Positions 1 to 9,154 of a DNA stretch of 12,919 bases are shown one piece after another; the first letter of the stretch is position 1; each line of letters begins with the position of its first letter. The notes beneath the pieces are model-generated. The model was not told the DNA's origin. It did no database searches and was given only the letters and a program-made list of their open reading frames with translations. The stretch is from Prevotella sp. Lineage in GTDB: Bacteria > Bacteroidota > Bacteroidia > Bacteroidales > Dysgonomonadaceae. Made by a program: the position numbers and the translations under genes. Location: assembly GCA_031260865.1 (NCBI GenBank), contig JAISKQ010000105.1, positions 1-12,919 of the forward strand, written 5' to 3'.

Positions 1-3000
1 TTCAAGGACAAAGCCATGACGACCTACAACAGTACCGCCTACCACCCGGCAGCCGATTCGGTCGCTTATTCCATGCCTGTTTACGAGGCTTCTCCGCTGA
101 ACAGGGTACTCGAACGATATGGACCGGGAGAAGCTTGGATGACCGGCAAGAAAGCCGTGCGCGCAGGCTACCTGACCAACATAGCCAAGACAGGGACGGC
201 ATGGGCGGACGCCGATTCGCTGGTATGCGCTTTGTATAAAACGACCGACGATAAAAAAAGCATCAGCCTGTCGCGGACAGGTAATTACAACGCCAACGAG
301 CTGTATGTCACCCGGATGAAAGACGAAGACGACAACACCTCGTATGAATTTAAGGATAAACAGGGACAGGTCGTCTTGGTTCGCCAAATCAATGACGGAA
401 AACGTTATGATACGAATTATATCTATGACAGTTACGGAAATCAGAGGGCGGTGCTGCCTCCCGAAGCTTCGGACAGACTGTTGAGTTCCTCGAACTGGAC
501 GGACGCCGATGCCAACCTCGCTCAATACGCCTATCTCTACAAATACGATAACCGCAACCGTTGCATTTATAAGAAGATACCCGGCTGCGAACCGGTTTAC
601 TATGTATATGACAAGGCTGATCGTTTGATCTTTACACAGGACGGCGAACAACGCGGTAAAATGCCTCAAGAATGGACATTCTCCATCCCCGACGCCTTTG
701 GAAGGGTAGTTTTGACCGGCCTTTGCAGGAACACACTTACCTATTCGGCAGACCCGTTAGGCACAGTTGTCGTGAAAGGGACGTATAATGCCAACTGTTC
801 AACTATAACAAGCAGTTATGCCATATCCGGCATCAACCTATCCAGCGGGACTATCACCAGTGCGGTGGTACTTTCCGCCAATTTTTATGATAACTATGAT
901 TTTATGGGAATGGCGGAAATACCCGACAATACCAATACGCAATATAACGAGGACACGGATTACAATACGCGTTACACCGGAGGCTACAAAGGCATGTTGA
1001 CAGGGACGCTGACGGCACAGATGAATACCGACGGGACGGTGTTATCCACCTACCTTTATTCGGTACTCTATTACGACAGCAGGGGCAGGGTGATACAGAC
1101 CAAATCGAACAACCACATGGAGGGAGGTATCGAAAAAGAGTACATCGCCTATAACTTCACCGGGCAACCGACCAAGAGAAAGCATATCCATCAGGCGACA
1201 GGCCAAACCACCCAGACGGAAGAGTACGCTTACACTTACGATCATGCCGGGCGGTTATTGACAACTACCCACCAGTTGACGGACGGCTCAACGGTGAAAT
1301 CGCAAGTCACCCTTGCCGAGAATACTTACGATGAACTGGGCAGGCTGAAAACCAACACGAAAGGCGGCATGGAAAGCACGCAGGCGACTTATGACTATAA
1401 TGTGCGCTCGTGGACGAAATCCATTACAGGTGCTTTATTCACTGAAAACCTGCAATACGGATATACGGGCAATATCAATCAAATGCAGTGGATCGTGGAT
1501 AACCAAAGCCGTAAATATGATTTCACTTACGATAACTTGTCGAGGCTGAAAGCGGCTGCCTACACGGGAATCGGAAGCGAACAGTACGGTACGGCATACA
1601 GCTACGACAAGCACGGCAATATGCTGACCTTGCAGCGGTATGGAAAGACGGCTGCTTCCACTTACGGATTGATGGATAACCTGACGATGACTTACTCAGG
1701 TAATCAATTAGTTAAAGCGGAAGACGCGGCTGCTAACATCAGCCTTGCTGAATCAGCGGACTTCAAGAATTATAGCAATGTGGCTACAGAATACACCTAT
1801 AATGCAAATGGCTCAATAAACAAAGATTTAAACAAAGGGATTTCCGATATTCAATATAATTCATTAAATTTACCGAGGATAGTGGATATAAAAAGTCCCG
1901 TTGCAGAGGCAAGGAACGAGTACACCTATTCGGCAGGAGGAGCTAAACTAAAGGTTGTACAGAAGTGGAATCCGAGTTACAATACCGCGCCTGTTGTTGG
2001 GTCGGATGTTACAGTTAGTGCTCTGATACAGAGTAAGACAACCGATTATGTGGGTAATACAATCTATGAAAATGGTTCTTTGAAACGCATATTAGTTGAC
2101 GGTGGATATATTGAAAATGGGGTTTATTACTATTACATTAATGACCATTTAGTCAATAACCGTGTTGTGGTGAACTCAAGTGGCACAGTAACCCAGAAGA
2201 CGCATTATTATCCGTTTGGAATGTCATTTGCCGATAGTTATGATAATGGAACGGATCAACCGTATAAGTACAATGGCAAGGAGTTGGACAAAATGCACGG
2301 GCTGAATATGTATGACTATTCTGCCAGGCATTTAGCTTTGGATATTCCGAGATTTACGACGGTTGACCCATTGGCGGAGAAGTATTATAGCATTAGTCCG
2401 TATGCGTATGTAGGGAATAATCCGTTGAAGTTTATAGATCCGACGGGGATGGATTGGTATGAAGATGACAAGGGAAATGTCATGTGGCAGGAAGGAAATG
2501 ATAAAACAGTGACAAAGACATATGAAGGTGAGAATGGCACAATTACTATTAACTATAGGAATGTCGGAACAAGTTATACCGTAAGGGTTGATGATAATGT
2601 TAGTGTTCGATACGAGCAAAATTCCATAGATAACGTCTTTTATTTGGATGAAGATCTGAAAAATATTAATCCTCAATTATCGGCAAGTACAAGAGAGCCT
2701 TCATTTTTCGAGAATTGGAGTAGTTCCGATAATTTCTTTGCCAATTTGGGTTATAATATATTAAATGATTTATATGTATCATTGCAGCCGTTTACATTTG
2801 GATTAGTAGGAGAAACTACAAATGAACTCACAGGAGGTATTGCTCATACTAATTTGGACGGAACTTCTAATTACAAAGGAATTGAATCATTCACTAATAC
2901 AGTTACATGGTTGATGCCAACGGGTGAAGCAAAATTGGGCTTAGATCCTTTAAAAACAATGAACGCTTCCCAATTCTCTCATGCATTTAAGGGTACATTG

Positions 3001-3144
3001 AGTACATTCTCTCCAGCGACAAGAGGAATGATTAATAGATCTATGAACAATGGCATGCGATTTATTAACAATCAGATTGGCAGTGGAAATGCAGTTGTAT
3101 TTCCAGTAAGTGTAGGATCATACTATAAACCTAATAATAAATGA
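1..3144 (+). CDS. RHS-repeat polymorphic toxin (DUF6443-type), 5' partial
   Basis: Large RHS protein, probably an exported or delivered shell carrying a C-terminal toxin. The frame is open to the left edge (FKDKA precedes the first ATG at 16), and the first visible residues already match the end of a DUF6443-like domain (SPLNRVLERYGPGEAW), so the true start lies upstream. Numbering from the ATG at 16, YD-type repeats include YTYDHAGRL, NTYDELGRL and FTYDNLSRL, and the RHS core tip runs from about 670 to 813 with HYYPFGMSF, YKYNGKELD, DPLAEKYYSISPYAY and DPTGMD (808-813). Residues 814-1042 form the variable C-terminal module, with no motif I recognise. In other RHS proteins this position holds the toxin, here by inference. 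A small membrane-protein gene follows one base after the stop. G+C falls sharply near 1750-1850, which suggests that the tip and toxin were acquired as a unit. Confidence 0.93.
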   Translation, partial: FKDKAMTTYNSTAYHPAADSVAYSMPVYEASPLNRVLERYGPGEAWMTGKKAVRAGYLTNIAKTGTAWADADSLVCALYKTTDDKKSISLSRTGNYNANELYVTRMKDEDDNTSYEFKDKQGQVVLVRQINDGKRYDTNYIYDSYGNQRAVLPPEASDRLLSSSNWTDADANLAQYAYLYKYDNRNRCIYKKIPGCEPVYYVYDKADRLIFTQDGEQRGKMPQEWTFSIPDAFGRVVLTGLCRNTLTYSADPLGTVVVKGTYNANCSTITSSYAISGINLSSGTITSAVVLSANFYDNYDFMGMAEIPDNTNTQYNEDTDYNTRYTGGYKGMLTGTLTAQMNTDGTVLSTYLYSVLYYDSRGRVIQTKSNNHMEGGIEKEYIAYNFTGQPTKRKHIHQATGQTTQTEEYAYTYDHAGRLLTTTHQLTDGSTVKSQVTLAENTYDELGRLKTNTKGGMESTQATYDYNVRSWTKSITGALFTENLQYGYTGNINQMQWIVDNQSRKYDFTYDNLSRLKAAAYTGIGSEQYGTAYSYDKHGNMLTLQRYGKTAASTYGLMDNLTMTYSGNQLVKAEDAAANISLAESADFKNYSNVATEYTYNANGSINKDLNKGISDIQYNSLNLPRIVDIKSPVAEARNEYTYSAGGAKLKVVQKWNPSYNTAPVVGSDVTVSALIQSKTTDYVGNTIYENGSLKRILVDGGYIENGVYYYYINDHLVNNRVVVNSSGTVTQKTHYYPFGMSFADSYDNGTDQPYKYNGKELDKMHGLNMYDYSARHLALDIPRFTTVDPLAEKYYSISPYAYVGNNPLKFIDPTGMDWYEDDKGNVMWQEGNDKTVTKTYEGENGTITINYRNVGTSYTVRVDDNVSVRYEQNSIDNVFYLDEDLKNINPQLSASTREPSFFENWSSSDNFFANLGYNILNDLYVSLQPFTFGLVGETTNELTGGIAHTNLDGTSNYKGIESFTNTVTWLMPTGEAKLGLDPLKTMNASQFSHAFKGTLSTFSPATRGMINRSMNNGMRFINNQIGSGNAVVFPVSVGSYYKPNNK
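2035..2454 (+). repeat. RHS tip direct repeat, copy A (inside the first RHS gene)
   Basis: First of three direct copies of the RHS core tip. It codes for KTTDYVGN through DPTGMD. Stretches identical or nearly identical with the other copies include ccgtttggaatgtcatttgc and ggcggagaagtattata. Such shared tips next to different C-terminal sequences are the substrate for homologous exchange of toxin modules in RHS loci. Confidence 0.85.
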
Positions 3145-3145
3145 C

Positions 3146-3406
3146 ATGAGAATATTATCTATCATATTTGCCAGTTTCTTTATTTTATATTTTGGAACGT
3201 TTCTTCGTTATTTATATAAGAAATATTTTAAGAAAGAAGAAGGGATTACTTTTAATAAATTACTTTTTAATGGTAAACGGTCAAAAAATAAAGAATATGA
3301 ATTTGAGGATTTTGAAAATGATATGTCGAATAAAGCATGGGGGTGTTCATTTCTAATTATATTAATTCTTTTACTTGTTTTTCTTTCTAAATCAGGACTA
3401 ATCTGA
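3146..3406 (+). CDS. Small two-helix membrane protein, probable immunity protein of the first RHS toxin
   Basis: An 86-residue protein with a hydrophobic helix at about residues 4-24, a basic stretch (YKKYFKKEEG), a hydrophilic acidic middle (YEFEDFEND) and a second helix at about 65-82 (FLIILILLLVFL). The ATG lies one base after the RHS stop (TGA C ATG), so the two genes are almost certainly co-transcribed and probably translationally coupled. Position directly behind an RHS toxin tip is the typical place for a cognate immunity gene, and a membrane immunity protein would fit a toxin acting at the inner membrane or neutralised there. The family is not recognised; the immunity role rests on position only. 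A shorter start at 3168 lies in another frame and is a shadow. Confidence 0.7.
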   Translation: MRILSIIFASFFILYFGTFLRYLYKKYFKKEEGITFNKLLFNGKRSKNKEYEFEDFENDMSNKAWGCSFLIILILLLVFLSKSGLI

Positions 3407-3454
3407 TATTCTCGTTCTTTGAAATAATTATTAGAATTTTCACACCCGTTTGTG

Positions 3455-3469
3455 CAGACGTCTCGTCTG
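3455..3469. repeat. Short perfect inverted repeat (cagacg-tct-cgtctg)
   Basis: A 6-bp perfect stem with a 3-base loop lies in the gap behind the small membrane protein gene. There is no T run after it, so it is not a convincing rho-independent terminator. It could be a weak transcript-end structure or part of a dispersed repeat. It lies in a 208-base gap (3407-3614) that otherwise holds only a short leader-like ORF. Confidence 0.35.
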
Positions 3470-3555
3470 AGTGTTGCGTAGCAATAATTATAGCTCAGCG
3501 AATGTTCGGCAGAGATAGTTATCGTTTTTCATAAATTTATCTATATAGGAAGGAT

Positions 3556-3618
3556 ATGAAAAAGAAAAATAATGAAAGAGTTGTTACTATTGTTACCTTT
3601 TTGCCAACGGCGCAATGA
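3556..3618 (+). other. Leader ORF / decayed signal-peptide remnant before the orphan RHS tip
   Basis: A 20-codon ORF (ATG 3556) ends in a TGA that overlaps the ATG of the orphan RHS tip (ATGA at 3615-3618). In another frame, from the ATG at 3572, the codons begin MKELLLLLPF. Adding one T to the T5 run at 3597-3602 would join this to LPTAQ and give MKELLLLLPFLPTAQ, which has the charged start, leucine core and small-residue end of a Sec signal peptide. This suggests the 5' end of an ancestral full-length RHS gene whose middle has been deleted. It could instead be a coupling leader. The T-insertion reading is inference. Confidence 0.4.
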
Positions 3619-4781
3619 AGTCAGATTTAAATAAAGGTATTTTGACGATGACCAAGACGACTGATTATGTCGGTAATATCATTTATGAAAACAACTCATT
3701 AAAAAGGATACTTGTAGACGGTGGATATATTGAAAATGGGATTTATTACTACTATATCAATGATCATTTGGAGAATAATCGTGCAGTAGTCAATTCCGGT
3801 GGTACGGTGATTCAAAAGAATCACTATTATCCGTTTGGAATGTCATTTGCTGAGAATACTGTTGCTGAACAGGGTTTGCAACCGTATAAGTATAATAATA
3901 AGGAGCTGGATCAGATGCACGGGGTAAATCTATATGACTACGGCGCAAGGCATAAGGATGATTTTAGGTTTACTACTATTGATCCATTGGCGGAGAAGTA
4001 TTATAGTATTAGTCCGTATGCTTACGTTGGAAATAATCCGCTCCTTAACATAGACCCTTCGGGGATGGATTATTGGAGTACAAATGATCCAGGAGAAATA
4101 GCAAGGTTTCTCTCATCAATACAAACTAATGAAGATTCAGATTGGACTCGATTTAATTTCAAATCATGGGTTCATATAACTGACTCAGAGTTTATTGGAG
4201 GGTTGACTTATAATGATGAAACCCAAATGTTTCATACAAGCTATGTGACAGCAGAACCTAATTCTGAATCTTCAAACGGATATGAATATATTGTTAACAG
4301 TATATCAGTTAAAGGTGCTTATTATCCTTATGCTGGTGAAAATGGCAATGCTGGTATTGCTTCTCACCGAAGACCTTTAGCCAGAGGAAATTTAGAGACA
4401 TTGGGCGCAAATGATCCTATTTTCATTGCATTGACTCTTGGTCGAAGTTTAACTCTTTCAGCAACAAGTAATGTTGCAACATCTGCGAGCTCTACGACTG
4501 TGGTTTCAAGTGGTGGCACAGCCATTAGTGCAACTATCCAAATAGGAAAACATGCTTTACAAAGAATGTCAGAAAGAGGCATTAGTAAAAAAATGGTTGA
4601 AGCAGCAATAAGAAAAGGAGTTAAAGTATATGATCCCAAAAATGGTGTAATTAATCATATTTTAAAAGGAGGTTTTGGGTCTGGACAAGATTTGTTAGTT
4701 GGAACAAATCCCGTAACAGGAGTCGTTACAACAGTTATTAGAGGTAGGCATTTATCAAACACAAGATTTATTCCATTATGA
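3615..4781 (+). CDS. Orphan RHS tip with C-terminal DUF4258-like toxin module
   Basis: A 388-residue protein made of a short RHS core tip and a different C-terminus. Residues 14-152 repeat the tip of the first RHS gene (TTDYVGN, HYYPFGMSF, YNNKELD, DPLAEKYYSISPYAY, DPSGMD at 147-152). The segment RHKDDFRFTT is shorter than RHLALDIPRFTT in the other copies. Residues 153-305 are an unrecognised linker region. Residues about 308-385 (HALQRMSERGIS, VEAAIRKG, then a Gly-rich turn and VVTTVIRG) resemble DUF4258, a small domain found at the ends of polymorphic toxins; H313, R317 and R321 are candidate functional residues. The start at ATG 3615 overlaps the stop of a 20-codon leader. No signal peptide is present in this frame, so it may be a silent cassette that is used after recombination, or expressed by coupling. 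Confidence 0.75.
   Translation: MKSDLNKGILTMTKTTDYVGNIIYENNSLKRILVDGGYIENGIYYYYINDHLENNRAVVNSGGTVIQKNHYYPFGMSFAENTVAEQGLQPYKYNNKELDQMHGVNLYDYGARHKDDFRFTTIDPLAEKYYSISPYAYVGNNPLLNIDPSGMDYWSTNDPGEIARFLSSIQTNEDSDWTRFNFKSWVHITDSEFIGGLTYNDETQMFHTSYVTAEPNSESSNGYEYIVNSISVKGAYYPYAGENGNAGIASHRRPLARGNLETLGANDPIFIALTLGRSLTLSATSNVATSASSTTVVSSGGTAISATIQIGKHALQRMSERGISKKMVEAAIRKGVKVYDPKNGVINHILKGGFGSGQDLLVGTNPVTGVVTTVIRGRHLSNTRFIPL
3654..4070 (+). repeat. RHS tip direct repeat, copy B
   Basis: Second direct copy of the RHS tip, from KTTDYVGN to DPSGMD. Just upstream, gatttaaataaaggtatt (3624-3641) matches gatttaaacaaagggatt at 1825-1842 of the first gene in 16 of 18 bases. About 190 bases that separate this block from the tip in the first gene are missing here, so copy B carries an internal deletion. 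Confidence 0.85.
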
Positions 4782-5116
4782 AATCATCATGACGTAAAAA
4801 AAACGCAAATGGCATGTAAATAACTAAAAAATGTGCATATTTGTAGTTGAAAGACCGACTTTTACTGGGATCACTATTTGCGGATAGTATAAACCCAATT
4901 ATGAAACTGGCTTCAACAGCTAAGCACCAAAGATTGAGACAAGGTTAATACTATAGTTCGTGCCTGAAATTTTATTTCTTTTAGCTGTTTATTTCTACTT
5001 TGATTTTGCTTTTACTGTCCGGCAAGTGCTTTTTTTTTTATGTTTTAATATAGGTTTCAGACGGTTTACTAACGAAAATAATGTTTAAAAAGACATTCTT
5101 ACTAATTTATTTACAC
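4782..5116. other. AT-rich gap between orphan RHS toxin and its presumed immunity gene
   Basis: About 335 bases without a convincing gene. It holds a 33-codon open stretch at 4847-4948, opened by TTG and following a TAG, that ends in ...MKLASTAKHQRLRQG and then TAA. It looks coding-like but I cannot assign it. A long T run lies near 5030-5040 without a clear stem before it. An in-frame alternative ATG for the next gene is at 5081. No RNA gene or promoter of the TTTG/TAnnTTTG kind was recognised. Confidence 0.4.
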
Positions 5117-5377
5117 ATGAAAAAAAAAATAGATTTAATAAAAAAAATGTTACAGAATAAATCTGGAAGGATAGAACAAATAAAGGTTTTCCAAGAATTA
5201 ATTTGGAATGATAATCATCCAAATTCTATTTTATCAGAACTTGCGTATGATTTGGATTTCTATGAACCTAACGAAGAATTGCGAAAGGAAGACCCAAGTT
5301 ATTATGGTGATGAAAAACTGGAAAGAATGTTAAATGTCATAATTATCAATTTACAAGGGAAGGAGGTTCATGGTTAA
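5117..5377 (+). CDS. Small acidic hypothetical protein, probable immunity protein of the orphan RHS toxin
   Basis: An 86-residue soluble protein from ATG 5117: a lysine-rich start (MKKKIDLIKKML), then an acidic body with LSELAYDLDFYEPNEE and KEDPSYYGDEKLERM. It has no signal peptide or membrane helix. Its place after a DUF4258-like toxin tip and before another RHS tip fragment is what is expected of a cytoplasmic immunity protein, but I do not recognise the family with certainty. An in-frame ATG at 5081 would add 12 residues (MFKKTFLLIYLH); I prefer 5117 because the longer form begins with a hydrophobic stretch out of keeping with the rest. An aaggagg sequence at 5360-5366 lies inside its 3' end and precedes a short out-of-frame ATG at 5370. 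Confidence 0.65.
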   Translation: MKKKIDLIKKMLQNKSGRIEQIKVFQELIWNDNHPNSILSELAYDLDFYEPNEELRKEDPSYYGDEKLERMLNVIIINLQGKEVHG

Positions 5378-5404
5378 AATACATTCGATTAGCTGGAGAT
5401 TGGC

Positions 5405-5758
5405 GGTTACTATGAAGGCGGAGTATATTATTACTATGTTAATGACCATTTAGGCAATAACCGTGTTGTAGTAAACGCAAGTGGTACAGTGATTCAGAAG
5501 AACCACTATTATCCGTTTGGAATGTCATTTGCTGAGAATAGTGTTGCTGAACAGGGCTTGCAACCGTATAAGTATAATAATAAGGAGCTGGATCAGATGC
5601 ACGGGCTGAATTGGTATGACTATTCTGCAAGGCATTTAGCTTTGGATATTCCGAGGTTTACCACTATCGACCCTCTGGCGGAGAAGTATTATTCGATTAG
5701 TCCGTATGCGTATTGTTTAAATAATCCGTTGAAGTATATTGACCCATTGGGTATGGAC
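5405..5758 (+). repeat. RHS tip direct repeat, copy C
   Basis: Third direct copy of the tip, from GGYYEGG to DPLGMD. It is closest to copy B in the block FAEN-x-VAEQGLQPYKYNNKELDQMHG and closest to copy A in YDYSARHLALDIPRFTT. This mosaic relationship is what recombination between the copies would leave. Confidence 0.8.
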
Positions 5759-5773
5759 ACTGTAGATATTACC

Positions 5774-5778
5774 TATTA
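5774..5778. repeat. Target-site duplication, left copy (TATTA)
   Basis: TATTA directly abuts the left inverted repeat and is repeated at 6928-6932 directly after the right one. It also supplies the last codons of the RHS tip fragment (acc TAT TA-a). Confidence 0.8.
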
Positions 5779-5796
5779 ACCTGAGTTCGACCTAAG
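5779..5796 (+). repeat. IS982 left terminal inverted repeat
   Basis: The 18 bases acctgagttcgacctaag match perfectly the reverse complement of 6910-6927. About 90 AT-rich bases lie between this end and the transposase ATG. Confidence 0.9.
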
Positions 5797-5884
5797 AAAT
5801 ATAAAAAAAGTGATAAAAAAAATTGGTAAGTTGGCGAAAATTTACTACATTAGAAGCTGAATATCAATTAAATAAATAAAAAAT

Positions 5885-6805
5885 ATGGCACAACTTACCA
5901 CCGATGAAATTACTGAAATTTTTTGTATTGCAGACGATTTTTGCAAAGAATTTGAGCAGGAACTCAAAAAACACCAAATCCAAGACAATGACGGCAAACA
6001 CCACAGAAATCGCAAATTTGCGATGTCCGATGCCGAAATCATTACCGTTATGATTTGTTTTCACTACGGAAGTTTCCGAAATCTCAAACATTTTTATCTG
6101 TATTATGTTGGAGAACATTTGCAAAGTGAATTCAATAACTTATTGTCTTACAATCGTTTTGTGGAACTTTAACGCAAAGTTATGATTCATTTTGTGCTTT
6201 TTCTCAAACTGATTTGTTTCGGAGAATGTACAGGAATAACCTTCATAGACTCCACCAAAATGGCAGTTTGCAAAAATAAACGCATCAAGCGCAACAAGGT
6301 TTTCAAGGATATTGCTACTGTTGGCAAAAGCACGATGGGCTGGTTTTATGGTTTCAAACTGCATTTGGTAATCAACGACAAGGGCGAACTGCTTAATTTT
6401 TGCATCACGCCAGCCAATGTAGATGACCGTGACTGGGGCGTTATTCAGCCGCTTTGCAAGAAACTTTTTGGCAAAATGTATGGAGATAAAGGTTACATTT
6501 CTGCCGCCTTGACAGAACTGCTTTTTGACGATGGCTTGCACCTTGTTACAGGTATCAAAAACAATATGAAAAACCGTCTTATGACAATGATAGATAAAAT
6601 TCTGCTCCGTAAACGCTCTGTAATTGAAACTATTAACGATGAGTTAAAAAACATTTGCGACATTGAACATTCACGTCATCGTAGCACTGCCAATTTTTTG
6701 ATAAACCTTTTCGCAGGACTTGCTGCATACTGTTTTTTTGAAAAAAAGCCCGCAATAAAGTTTGAACGTTCCCTGCAAACAGGACAGTTGGAACTGTTTG
6801 CATAA
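5885..6805 (+). pseudogene. IS982-family DDE transposase interrupted by an in-frame TAA
   Basis: Two pieces in one frame, 95 and 207 residues, are separated by TAA at 6170-6172. Reading through gives about 306 residues, the usual size for IS982 transposases: YNRFVEL-stop-RKVMIHFVLFLK. CAA (Gln) to TAA is the simplest explanation. Catalytic acidic residues are visible in order: D122 (TFIDSTK), D201 (YGDKGY) and E248 (SVIETINDELKN). The first piece is the N-terminal region, and all three catalytic residues lie in the second piece, which has an in-frame ATG at 6182 but would lack the N-terminal third. The element is probably unable to move by itself, though another copy could act on its ends. 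Confidence 0.88.
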
Positions 6806-6909
6806 TAATTTTCTGCTTCCAATTTTTTTGTACGACATTGCCTCAGCACGATGCCGCGTATCTTTATATCCCATCTTTTCCTTATAGAGATAATACTAAA
6901 AATGAATAT

Positions 6910-6927
6910 CTTAGGTCGAACTCAGGT
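6910..6927 (-). repeat. IS982 right terminal inverted repeat
   Basis: The 18 bases cttaggtcgaactcaggt are a perfect inverted copy of the left end. The minus-strand patatin-like frame runs into this repeat and stops at a TGA inside it (6922-6924). Confidence 0.9.
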
Positions 6928-8268
6928 TATTAGAGAAGATGGTTTTAGGTATTCACTTAATATCCTTGTTTCAAATTTATCTTCTGTTCTCTTTTCTCCT
7001 TCCCTCAATTGGTAAATAGCATTCATGATTCTCCTGTTTTTCCATTCTTCATTTTCATAAACAGGCTTATAGTTCAAACGGCGAATATGCTTCATAAATA
7101 CACTTCCTGTCAGCTTCATTACAGACATAACCCTGTTTTTTATAAATGATTCGAATACAAGAAGCTTTATATGGATCAAATTTTTAAGTTTTTTAGAATC
7201 AAGAATCTTTACGTTTTTCAATATTTTCCTGGAGGTAAATATAGCTATAACAGGTATTATAGATAATGTTAATGCAATTGTTGAGATTATTGCACTTAAA
7301 ATTGAATCGTAAACGATACCGCCCACCAAAGCCAATACTGATAGAATTAATACTCCTGTCGATATATTCTGTATTTTAGACAATGTTAAGGATCTCCACC
7401 AATTTTCTTTTTGTTGAACACTTGCTGTGAATTCCTCCATATAGGGACTAGCTACATCGGATATTATAATTAAATCTAAAACATAGTTTTTATGATCAGA
7501 ATTATTTAGCCTCATTCTCTTCTCAACTAGGAGTAGTGGCTCAATTCCCTGATTGTCAACGATGCTTCCATCCGTTAGACCAATTGGATATTTGTCATTT
7601 TGAACAAAATTTTCCAGTTCAGGCACATCCGGCAATATAAAATCCTGAAGAAAGTATATTGGTTCGAAACCTCATGGAGAGCAGGATGAAGAAACAAGGA
7701 TATCTCCCATTCTTATTTCTTTAGCCAGAGCTTCGGGGATGTTATTGTAATAATTCCCAATCAATCCTTTATCATATGGATCAGTATCTAACCCATAAAT
7801 TTTTTCTGATATTTGAAATCTGAACTGAAGTCCGGTTGTAAACTCAGTCGCATTAAAAAAAATATGTTTCAGGTGAATCGGGTCGTCTTCGTTGAGTAAT
7901 AATCCGAATTTTTCATGATCAAACAAATATGTGTCATATAAATCTGCAAAAGAATTAATTAAACTTTTTACTTTTTTTTCATTCCATCCTTCGTCAGAAC
8001 TCAAATGATTAATAATATCCGAAATCAGGTCAATATCTATGAAAAAATTGTATAGGGCATGATAAAAGTCTTCAACAGATTCCCCTCTTTTTATACCCAC
8101 TGCATATCGACCACCCGTAATAGTACCTCCGGAAACTGTCGATACAGCGACAACCTTGTTTAATAAAGAAGTATCATCTATTTTAATCTTATCCAAATAA
8201 GTCAATGTTCCCAGATTAAACGCAGAGGCTCTGTATCCTCCTCCCGAAAATGCAAGCGCTATTTTCAT
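6922..8268 (-). pseudogene. Patatin-like lipase/phospholipase interrupted by an in-frame TGA
   Basis: One frame of 449 codons including two stops. Residues 9-14 are the oxyanion-hole motif GGGYRA, the nucleophile is S46 in STVSGGT, and D233 lies in the DG motif (LTDGSIVDNQG), so the Ser-Asp dyad of patatin-type acyl hydrolases is kept. Two membrane helices are likely at about 303-348 (VLILSVLALVGGIVY and the following hydrophobic stretch), so the enzyme was probably membrane-anchored. Codon 199 is TGA (7672-7674) in SSSCSP-stop-GFEP, where relatives have a Gly (FPGGFEP); GGA to TGA fits. Without the IS, the frame would run about 15 codons further, antisense to the RHS tip, so the present end is made by the IS repeat. 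The gene is divergent from an MBL-fold gene. Proteins of this kind can be phospholipase effectors in secretion or anti-phage systems; which applies here is unknown. Confidence 0.85.
6928..6932. repeat. Target-site duplication, right copy (TATTA)
   Basis: This is the second copy of the 5-base sequence that flanks the element on the left. Removing the element and one copy rejoins the third RHS tip and the patatin-like gene. Confidence 0.8.
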
Positions 8269-8573: not shown

Positions 8574-8944
8574 ATGATGTTCAGATTATTACAAGCAAGT
8601 AATGGAGACGCCATTCATCTTAGAACTAAAGTTGAAAAAGGGAGGTTTTATAATATTCTGATTGATGGTGGAATAGGAGAAACATATTCACATAAAAACA
8701 AAAAAGGAAAAACTGAAGATGGCGATTGAAACAACTTGTCCTGTGTATAAAGAGTCAAAACGAATTTATTGATTTGCTAATTCTTACTCATGTTGACGAT
8801 GACCATATTGGTGGGGTTTTGAAGTGGTTTGAGCAAGATGTAGATGCAAAAGATTTAGTAAAAAAGGTTTGGTTTAATTCAGGTAGGCTTATATTCGAGT
8901 ATTTCAAACAAATAGAAATCGAAGAAAATTTTTTGAGCGAATAA
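8574..8944 (+). pseudogene. MBL-fold metallo-hydrolase, frameshifted and truncated
   Basis: The first piece (8574-8729, 51 residues) starts MMFRLLQASNGDAIHL and has ILIDGG, the first strands of a metallo-beta-lactamase fold. The second piece begins around 8726 in another frame with LKQLVL and holds LTHVDDDHIGG, the HxDxDH metal-binding motif. The two meet at GD/LKQ, where restoring one base near 8726 would make a continuous protein. The second piece stops at 8944 after about 72 residues, too short for the fold (later metal ligands are absent), so the 3' part is lost as well. A small plus-strand promoter match lies upstream. MBL-fold proteins of this style (QASNGDA start, DGG, THxDxDHIGG) occur in accessory and some anti-phage loci; function here is unknown. 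An ATG at 8577 is an equally good start. Confidence 0.82.
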
Positions 8945-9041: not shown

Positions 9042-9056
9042 TGTTACTTTTGTCAC
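9042..9056. repeat. 15-bp direct repeat, first copy (tgttacttttgtcac)
   Basis: Identical to 9096-9110 and followed by a T-rich tract in both cases. The reverse strand of each would read KVTKVT in one frame. It is probably a dispersed intergenic repeat and not part of a gene. Confidence 0.6.
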
Positions 9057-9095
9057 TTTTTTTAGAACTCTAGTAAACTTGAATACTGAAAAAAC

Positions 9096-9110
9096 TGTTA
9101 CTTTTGTCAC
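9096..9110. repeat. 15-bp direct repeat, second copy (tgttacttttgtcac)
   Basis: Second copy of the 15-base sequence, 54 bases downstream of the first and followed by CTTTTT. The pair lies between the decayed accessory genes and the core operon. Confidence 0.6.
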
Positions 9111-9154
9111 CTTTTTCAATAAATGACCGTTGGCGGAAAAGGGGAACTCTATTC

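Follow-up and report, generated by a model that had tools for sequence, protein, structure and literature searches.

In Salmonella, homology between rhs cores permits the fusion of an orphan ending to the main rhs gene (Koskiniemi 2014, PMC3967940), and the replacement of endings by recombination between tip cores has been argued in general terms (PMC3482391, PMC3150448). Here, we analyzed a stretch of DNA of 12,919 bp (the window), which is contig C214 (GenBank JAISKQ010000105.1) of a metagenome-assembled genome (MAG) of 2.54 Mb in 335 contigs that is 74% complete. In this window, a main gene of the RHS type is followed by two further copies of its tip, i.e., of the core end of the gene. The window was compared with a genus group (Dysgonomonas) of 25 genomes, including its own, and with a wider search set of 61 genomes. 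Among the open-licence papers listed by our searches, leaving aside a termite-gut survey in which both words occur, none describes RHS arrays in Dysgonomonas. We consider it very probable that this is an RHS-type polymorphic-toxin locus made of a main gene and orphan tips, whose cores recombine and whose endings have been moved onto main genes over evolutionary time. This reading is based on the array layout, on the mosaic tip cores, on the relatedness of main and orphan endings, and on a distal ending module that is conserved while its carrier is not.

In the mechanism that we propose, the main gene would supply a long RHS shell with one toxin-like ending, and the downstream copies would be 5′-truncated tips, each normally with a different ending, next to a small gene that is a candidate for immunity. 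The tip core common to the copies (~120-220 codons) would provide the homology for recombination between copies; gene conversion and crossing-over would shuffle blocks of the core, and over evolutionary time an ending could be moved, together with its neighbour gene, onto the main shell. The endings are presumably toxins and the adjacent small open reading frames (ORFs) their immunity genes, and the exchange that replaces main-gene endings would proceed by homologous recombination, core to core. The elements of the locus are as follows:

16..3144, plus strand: main RHS gene, 1042 amino acids (aa) from the first ATG, with DUF6443 and Rhs_assc_core
2035..2454, plus strand: tip A, the core end within the main gene (repeat search, Rhs_assc_core)
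2455..3141, plus strand: ending A, with a proximal part (~aa 813-895) and a distal, toxin-like part (~aa 896-1042); no Pfam family
3146..3406, plus strand: 86-aa ORF, placed where an immunity gene for ending A would be expected and a candidate by position only; no family match
3442..3603, plus strand: linker before tip B, with copies on contigs C255 and C308 of the same genome
3583..3601, plus strand: motif GTTACTATTGTTACCTTTT, one mismatch from GTYACYTTTGTYACYTTTT
3615..4781, plus strand: orphan tip B ORF, 388 aa, with a core scrap, an internal deletion, the core (3654-4070) and ending B
4071..4778, plus strand: ending B, with a shared pre-toxin 'YWSTNDP' module and then a distal DUF4258 domain
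5081..5377, plus strand: 98-aa ORF, placed where an immunity gene for ending B would be expected; no family matched convincingly
5402..5776, plus strand: tip C, 5′-truncated and without an ending; its stop codon (5777-5779) lies on the boundary of the insertion sequence
5779..6927, plus strand: insertion sequence (IS) of the IS982 family, with the transposase frame in two parts (5885-6172, 6182-6805)

A first-pass annotation of the window had proposed three direct copies of the RHS tip, at 2035-2454, 3654-4070 and 5405-5758, followed by three different endings. Both proposals were confirmed, the copies at essentially these positions. Our repeat search aligned 2035-2234, 3654-3853 and 5336-5535 in one register (79% and 61% identity to A) and returned further repeat blocks at 3720-3953/5402-5635 (83%), 2257-2453/5561-5757 (83%) and 2350-2453/3966-4069/5654-5757; the true start of copy C is located at ~5402. 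The NCBIfam model Rhs_assc_core (TIGR03696) matched all three tips, at residues 731-812 of A, 71-151 of B and 7-89 of C, and each core is closed by a DPxG-type motif (DPTGMD, DPSGMD and DPLGMD, respectively). Ending A, of 230 aa, had no Pfam match, while ending B matched DUF4258 at residues 312-339 (E 9.9e-6, 26.2 bits versus a cut-off of 25). Copy C stops 6 codons past its DPxGMD; it had been described as followed by nothing, which is correct in that no ending is present, but it is a truncated remnant that abuts the IS982-family insertion. Tip B retains a scrap of earlier core (~3604-3641, core aa ~595-606) followed by an internal deletion, and its ORF begins with an in-frame ATG. All three tips are direct copies on the same strand; no shufflon-type inverted repeats were found around the variable segments, the sole inverted pair (at least 25 nt, seed 12) being the ends of the IS.

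The predicted structure of ending A (mean predicted local distance difference test score, pLDDT, 38.9) was too poor for a fold search. PDB sequence searches returned core relatives only. For the ending-A profile, other rows of which extend into the core, these were YenC2 and an Rhs protein; for tip B, they were mosquito SGS1, SGS4 and a teneurin-like protein. Rfam gave zero matches across 7 sources. A leader peptide before tip B, with a stop overlapping the tip ATG, was noticed by eye and dropped, as its frame is not conserved before the C255 tips.

The tip cores are mosaic. Copy C had been reported to match B in one block and A in another, and a triplet permutation test bears this out: among 74 informative sites, the maximal run-sum was 23, a value reached in 0 of 100,000 permutations (p ~1e-5). 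Block 5442-5481 of C is closer to A (36/40 matches, versus 28/40 to B), block 5482-5601 to B (115/120, versus 89/117 to A) and block 5602-5641 to A again (37/40, versus 25/34 to B), so that the pattern is one of mosaic blocks and not of uniform divergence. Over 5442-5641, the closest sequence to C is the tip C255:2125 (188/200); thus, A and B are not necessarily the parents, and the exchange pool extends beyond the three copies of the window.

We extended the analysis to eight tips of the same genome: A, B and C of the window, the C308 main gene, and C255:5, 2125, 5638 and 7038. C255:5638 is the 3′ half of an insertion-split tip, the 5′ half of which (C255:4068) was excluded from the triplet tests, and the misaligned 5′ scrap of B was masked in both the triplet and the identical-tract tests. 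Of the 168 overlapping triplets, 105 gave p<=0.05 and 50 gave p<=0.001. By comparison, a clonal simulation in which rates varied by block put 3.8% of triplets at p<=0.05. In a cross-genome control (399-400 triplets per segment from 24 main genes, with one of the two L075 mains left out), the fraction at p<=0.05 was 11% for a shell segment, 15% for the middle and 21% for the tip; recombination or saturation may therefore also have acted outside the arrays. Additionally, the longest identical tract reached at least 45 nt in 10 of the 28 tested pairs of own-genome tips, 8 of the 10 lying on different contigs. These eight cross-contig pairs share tracts of 57-112 nt within an overall identity of 72-83%, among them 112 nt between the C308 main gene and C255:5, 98 nt between the C308 main gene and C255:5638, 95 and 84 nt between A and C255:5638 and C255:7038, respectively, and 77 nt between B and C255:7038.

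A mosaic of this kind might arise when short reads of repeats from a mixed metagenome are assembled. In favor of such an artefact, the assembly of the own genome is fragmented and incomplete, and tips lie at the contig ends of C308 and C255. Nevertheless, excess mosaic triplets (p<=0.05) are also found, with the same array layout, in G003, which is a single contig (0.42 of 12 triplets), and in G005, which consists of nine contigs (0.67 of 60 triplets), so an assembly artefact cannot explain the pattern in general, and we consider it very improbable as the source of the mosaics. The corresponding fractions in other genomes were 0.37 in G018, 0.57 in G015 and 0.35 in G010.

The same layout recurs across the genus. 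The main protein was matched in 42 of the 61 genomes, its own included, and the loci for comparison were picked by hand from among the listed matches. In the first 23 loci, most mains are followed by tips with a spacing of mostly 1.2-2.3 kb, and up to seven orphans stand behind one main gene (G015); the mains without a fetched tip are that of G010 L064 and both of G019 L075. In none of 43 loci do tip matches occur on both strands. In a tree of the 107 tip segments that were kept after the removal of those with stops or incomplete ends, segments cluster by genome: the nearest row is from the same genome in 88 of the 107 (chance 0.07), in 18 of 29 mains, and in 54 of 85 rows when neighbours from a row's own locus are excluded. 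This clustering fits within-genome homogenisation, recent duplication, or both.

Two tips of the own genome on contig C255 (L013) are rearranged. One is split at 4331-5637 by what appears by eye to be a transposase-like insertion, with core residues 597-683 before it and 679-813 after it. In the other, at 7658-7772, a 41-bp stretch over the DPTGMD codons is repeated 74 bp further on (95%), and the downstream ending is out of frame. On C308 (L014), upstream of the second RHS operon, positions 1-849 encode a protein whose C-terminus, judged by eye, we take to resemble a type IX secretion C-terminal domain.

The endings themselves are related between main genes and orphans. The comparison covered endings of at least 25 aa, 18 of the main type and 63 from orphans. 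One of the 18, C255:5, was assumed to be a main gene; it begins at the contig edge, with core aa 545, and may be an orphan instead. Ten of the 18 main-type endings, C255:5 among them, are related to an orphan-tip ending (E<=1e-4), nine of them to an orphan of another genome (that of G010 L063 also to one of its own) and that of G014 to its own orphan only. Ending A resembles a G014 orphan ending (45% over 114 aa), and ending B has its first 58-60 residues in common with two other endings, that of C255:5 and that of a main gene of G010. The endings have two parts, a shared pre-toxin stretch past the DPxGMD and a differing distal part, and otherwise similar RHS proteins carry unrelated endings. 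In a Pfam scan of the 67 endings of at least 60 aa (of 79), we identified Peptidase_M91 (3), DUF4329 (3), Toxin-JAB1 (2) and Ntox24 (2), as well as Tox-REase-7, Ntox50, Tox-MPTase2, Tox-MPTase3 and one DUF4258. Apart from the two DUFs, these are families already known from polymorphic toxins, which favors the main reading.

The clearest case of movement concerns the distal module of ending A. Between the window main protein and P0002, an RHS protein from a JGI record, the identity is 55% over the 490 positions aligned for the shell, 57% for the Rhs core and 31% in the proximal ending, but 86% (127/147) in the distal ending. The distal module has changed carriers, and the point of exchange falls within the ending itself. 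Such a contrast between distal and shell identity is absent versus P0003 (57% shell, 57% distal) and P0004 (44% and 49%). The toxin-replacement layout proposed in the first-pass annotation stands on three points: orphan tips that end differently lie behind a main gene, the tips recombine with one another, and endings found on mains in one genome occur on orphans in another. Since the best full-length match to the main protein among the other 24 genus genomes has 63% identity and no near-identical strain is among them, the term replacement locus applies here in an evolutionary sense only.

The downstream tips could instead be the decaying leftovers of earlier toxin replacements, with no present role and with mosaics that arose by passive gene conversion. 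The truncation of C at the IS, the internal core deletion of B, the split and the duplicated, frame-changed tips of C255, and the stops found in several orphan matches of other loci are all signs of decay. Against this, many orphan endings retain open frames of ~180-250 aa, endings of this kind recur on main genes elsewhere, and tips follow the core version of their own genome. We regard decay without a present role as unlikely, though a real contender.

Several observations weigh against a locus of recombining main and orphan tips. Within the window, A has 75% identity to B and 79% to C, with a longest identical run of 26 nt, which makes a poor substrate, so that frequent main-orphan exchange in the window itself is doubtful. 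Long near-identical core homology between main and orphan is absent within the window, the longer main-tip runs (up to 98 nt with an orphan and 112 nt with C255:5) being cross-contig only, and single breakpoints in the own fragmented MAG could be assembly chimeras. The mosaic fraction of G014 (0.18) is no higher than that of the cross-genome tip control (0.21). Finally, for 8 of the 18 main-type endings the set contains no orphan relative, and most of the 67 scanned endings have no Pfam family.

A second feature of these arrays lies upstream of the tips. The linker before B has near-full copies at three places on C255 (87%, 80% and 88%), of which two precede tips and one lies near the contig end without a tip, and shorter pieces of its 3′ part precede a C308 tip and a C255 tip. 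The linker ends in the motif GTTACTATTGTTACCTTTT, a variant of GTYACYTTTGTYACYTTTT. The 19-bp motif, GTNACYTTTGTNACYTTTT, is a 9-nt direct repeat, with copies in the window also at 9043-9061 and 9097-9115. In the own genome, tips B, C255:2125, 4068 and 7038, and C308:8724 have the motif upstream, while tip C of the window and C255:5638 do not.

We scored orphan tips across the genus, excluding those that start less than 200 bases from a locus edge or end before core aa 700. The motif was found within 160 bp upstream of 36 of 95 tips with at most one mismatch and of 46 of 95 with at most three, versus 1.4% and 1.8%, respectively, of random 190-bp windows of the same loci; tips within one array are not independent units in this count. 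With at most three mismatches, the motif precedes 13/15 tips in G018, 5/6 in G014, 4/5 in G007, 3/3 in G003, 3/5 in G000, 1/1 in G019, 5/12 in G010, 3/8 in G005, 2/6 in G011, 1/3 in G009 and 1/3 in G024; in G015, 5/16 tips have it in degenerate form only. It was found upstream of none of the scored tips of G001, G008, G016, G020 and G021 and of none of 12 tips in four other genera. A count upstream of 'main' matches (none found) falls inside coding sequence and, being an unfair control, was not used. In several species the majority of orphan tips, among them B, begin directly behind the motif, which meets the core at varying points (aa ~430, 595, 611, 630 and 690), and in some tips the first 45 nt after the motif show no core match above shuffles. 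We had considered a single ancestral motif-core junction; this was withdrawn, as local alignment versus shuffles indicated several junctions.

The motif is not confined to RHS tips. It is present in 20 of the 25 genus genomes (476 copies in G000, 193 in G003) and has zero copies in five. In a same-order sample of 198 genomes, multiple copies of a looser form were found in just three, G000, G024 and G029, all from the family of the window, and a single copy in each of three others; no copy of the stricter form was found in G033, another member of that family. Taking long ORFs, and not annotation, as genes, 34 of 34 motif copies examined in G003 lie outside them, and 33 of these are oriented towards the ORF that follows; the preceding ORF is on the same strand in 17 cases and on the opposite strand in 16. 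The orientation is likewise towards the following ORF for 30 of 32 copies in 27 loci of other genomes, which include RHS tips. Among the genes that follow the motif, we recognized by eye glmS, trpS, kbl and transporters; in the window, a SUI1-helicase pair follows it.

The form of the motif also matches between tips and genome. In G011, GTAAC replaces the usual form in both half-sites (40 copies, versus 1 of the GTYAC form), the middle base having changed in both together; two RHS tips of this genome carry the GTAAC form, one of them cut by the contig end and uncounted, and a third carries another degenerate form. G019 contains both forms (233 and 17). Agreement of this kind would be expected for a site recognized by a species-specific factor. 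G015 departs from it: of the six occurrences of its tip variant, five lie in RHS arrays.

The consensus of the Bacteroides promoter -7 box is given as TAnnTTTG in PMC7366714, and the motif stretch GTTACYTTTG contains it. A reading of the motif as a simple -7 box is doubtful: the GTCAC form of G018 lacks the TA, and no second promoter box at a fixed distance was found among 36 G003 copies, RHS tips among them. The papers listed by a literature text search for the motif letters are, judged by titles and abstracts, unrelated.

The first-pass annotation had held the downstream tips to be silent until recombined into the expressed gene. This is not supported as stated. B has an in-frame ATG with a gene-upstream motif ahead of it, like most orphan tips of several related species. 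The placement of the motif makes transcription of the cassettes plausible, with the internal promoters of Salmonella as a precedent, and motif-headed cassettes may be transcribed. One can go further and propose that the orphan tips are expressed toxin-immunity modules, in which the motif region drives tip, ending and immunity gene and which are kept by addiction or by the supply of immunity. In favor of this are the enrichment of the motif upstream of tips and its orientation towards the downstream gene, together with two precedents, i.e., Salmonella rhs main and orphan toxins with internal promoters that act as toxin-antitoxin (TA) modules (PMC7043789) and the orphan cdi immunity produced in E. 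coli EC93 (PMC3150448). On the other hand, the objections to the -7 box apply equally to the motif as a promoter, 49 of the 95 tips have no motif, including all scored tips of five genus genomes, and many tips have no good start codon near it. We hold modules of this kind to be possible but not the favored account. With similar reserve, we suggest that the orphan cassettes are not promoterless spares but are built on GTNACYTTTGTNACYTTTT at a fixed 5′ boundary with a varying core junction, so that the array would be an expressed bank as well as a recombination store. The array layout itself is of an already known kind, and the motif-headed cassettes might be the part that is new.

As for the surroundings, the reading frame of the main RHS gene is open up to the left window edge, and the gene start lies outside the window; contig C186 has an overlap of 119 identical bp with this edge, plus further sequence of the same gene kind. 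The IS982-family element has a 5-bp flanking repeat, TATTA. Adjoining it is the 3′ end of a patatin-like gene on the minus strand (6925-8268), which is in two frames. An MBL-fold protein resembling LmuA (PADLOC), probably the product of a defence gene that has decayed, follows in two pieces in different frames (8574-8941). Further along the window lie SUI1-type and RecB-like helicase genes.

Taken as a recombining main-plus-orphan locus, this array places a layout worked out in Proteobacteria in gut symbionts of the Bacteroidota at large scale, where the arrays hold several cassettes each and have clear patchwork cores. Isolates that can be cultivated, for example Dysgonomonas sp. BGC7, 521 and PFB1-18, make tip exchange open to testing, and the cassette-boundary motif offers a concrete handle on whether 'silent' toxin cassettes are transcribed. 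If it does mark or drive the expression of each cassette, the array would double as an immunity or toxin-antitoxin bank.

Comparison with the described systems, as far as the consulted parts of each source go, shows both likeness and difference. As in the Salmonella RHS TA modules (PMC7043789), a conserved upstream element stands ahead of many different Rhs endings. The Salmonella P2 promoter lies inside the rhs frame and was experimentally tested; unlike P2, the motif of the present arrays sits at the 5′ tip junction, occurs genome-wide and is known from its sequence only. The locus also resembles the orphan cdiA-CT/cdiI and rhs 'silent cassettes' of Poole 2011 (PMC3150448), which are downstream toxin/immunity fragments on the same strand that begin with conserved core and diverge past a PxxxxDPxGL marker, as here; those cassettes are from Proteobacteria, and no common genome-wide upstream motif is described in the sections consulted. 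It is likewise similar to the polymorphic toxin cassettes of Zhang 2012 (PMC3482391), in which toxin-then-immunity units recombine onto a constant 5′ body. Bacteroidetes are covered in that study, while in the portion consulted Dysgonomonas is not named and neither tip-core mosaics nor an upstream motif is described. The closest layout is that of the main/orphan rhs locus of Salmonella (PMC3967940), where the main rhs gene is followed by an orphan tip-ending fragment and an immunity gene. That locus has one orphan, with 522 bp at 95% identity to the main gene and without initiation signals; unlike it, in the arrays described here A has 75-79% identity to B and C, the cores show mosaicism, and a gene-upstream motif stands at the head of many orphans in the genus.

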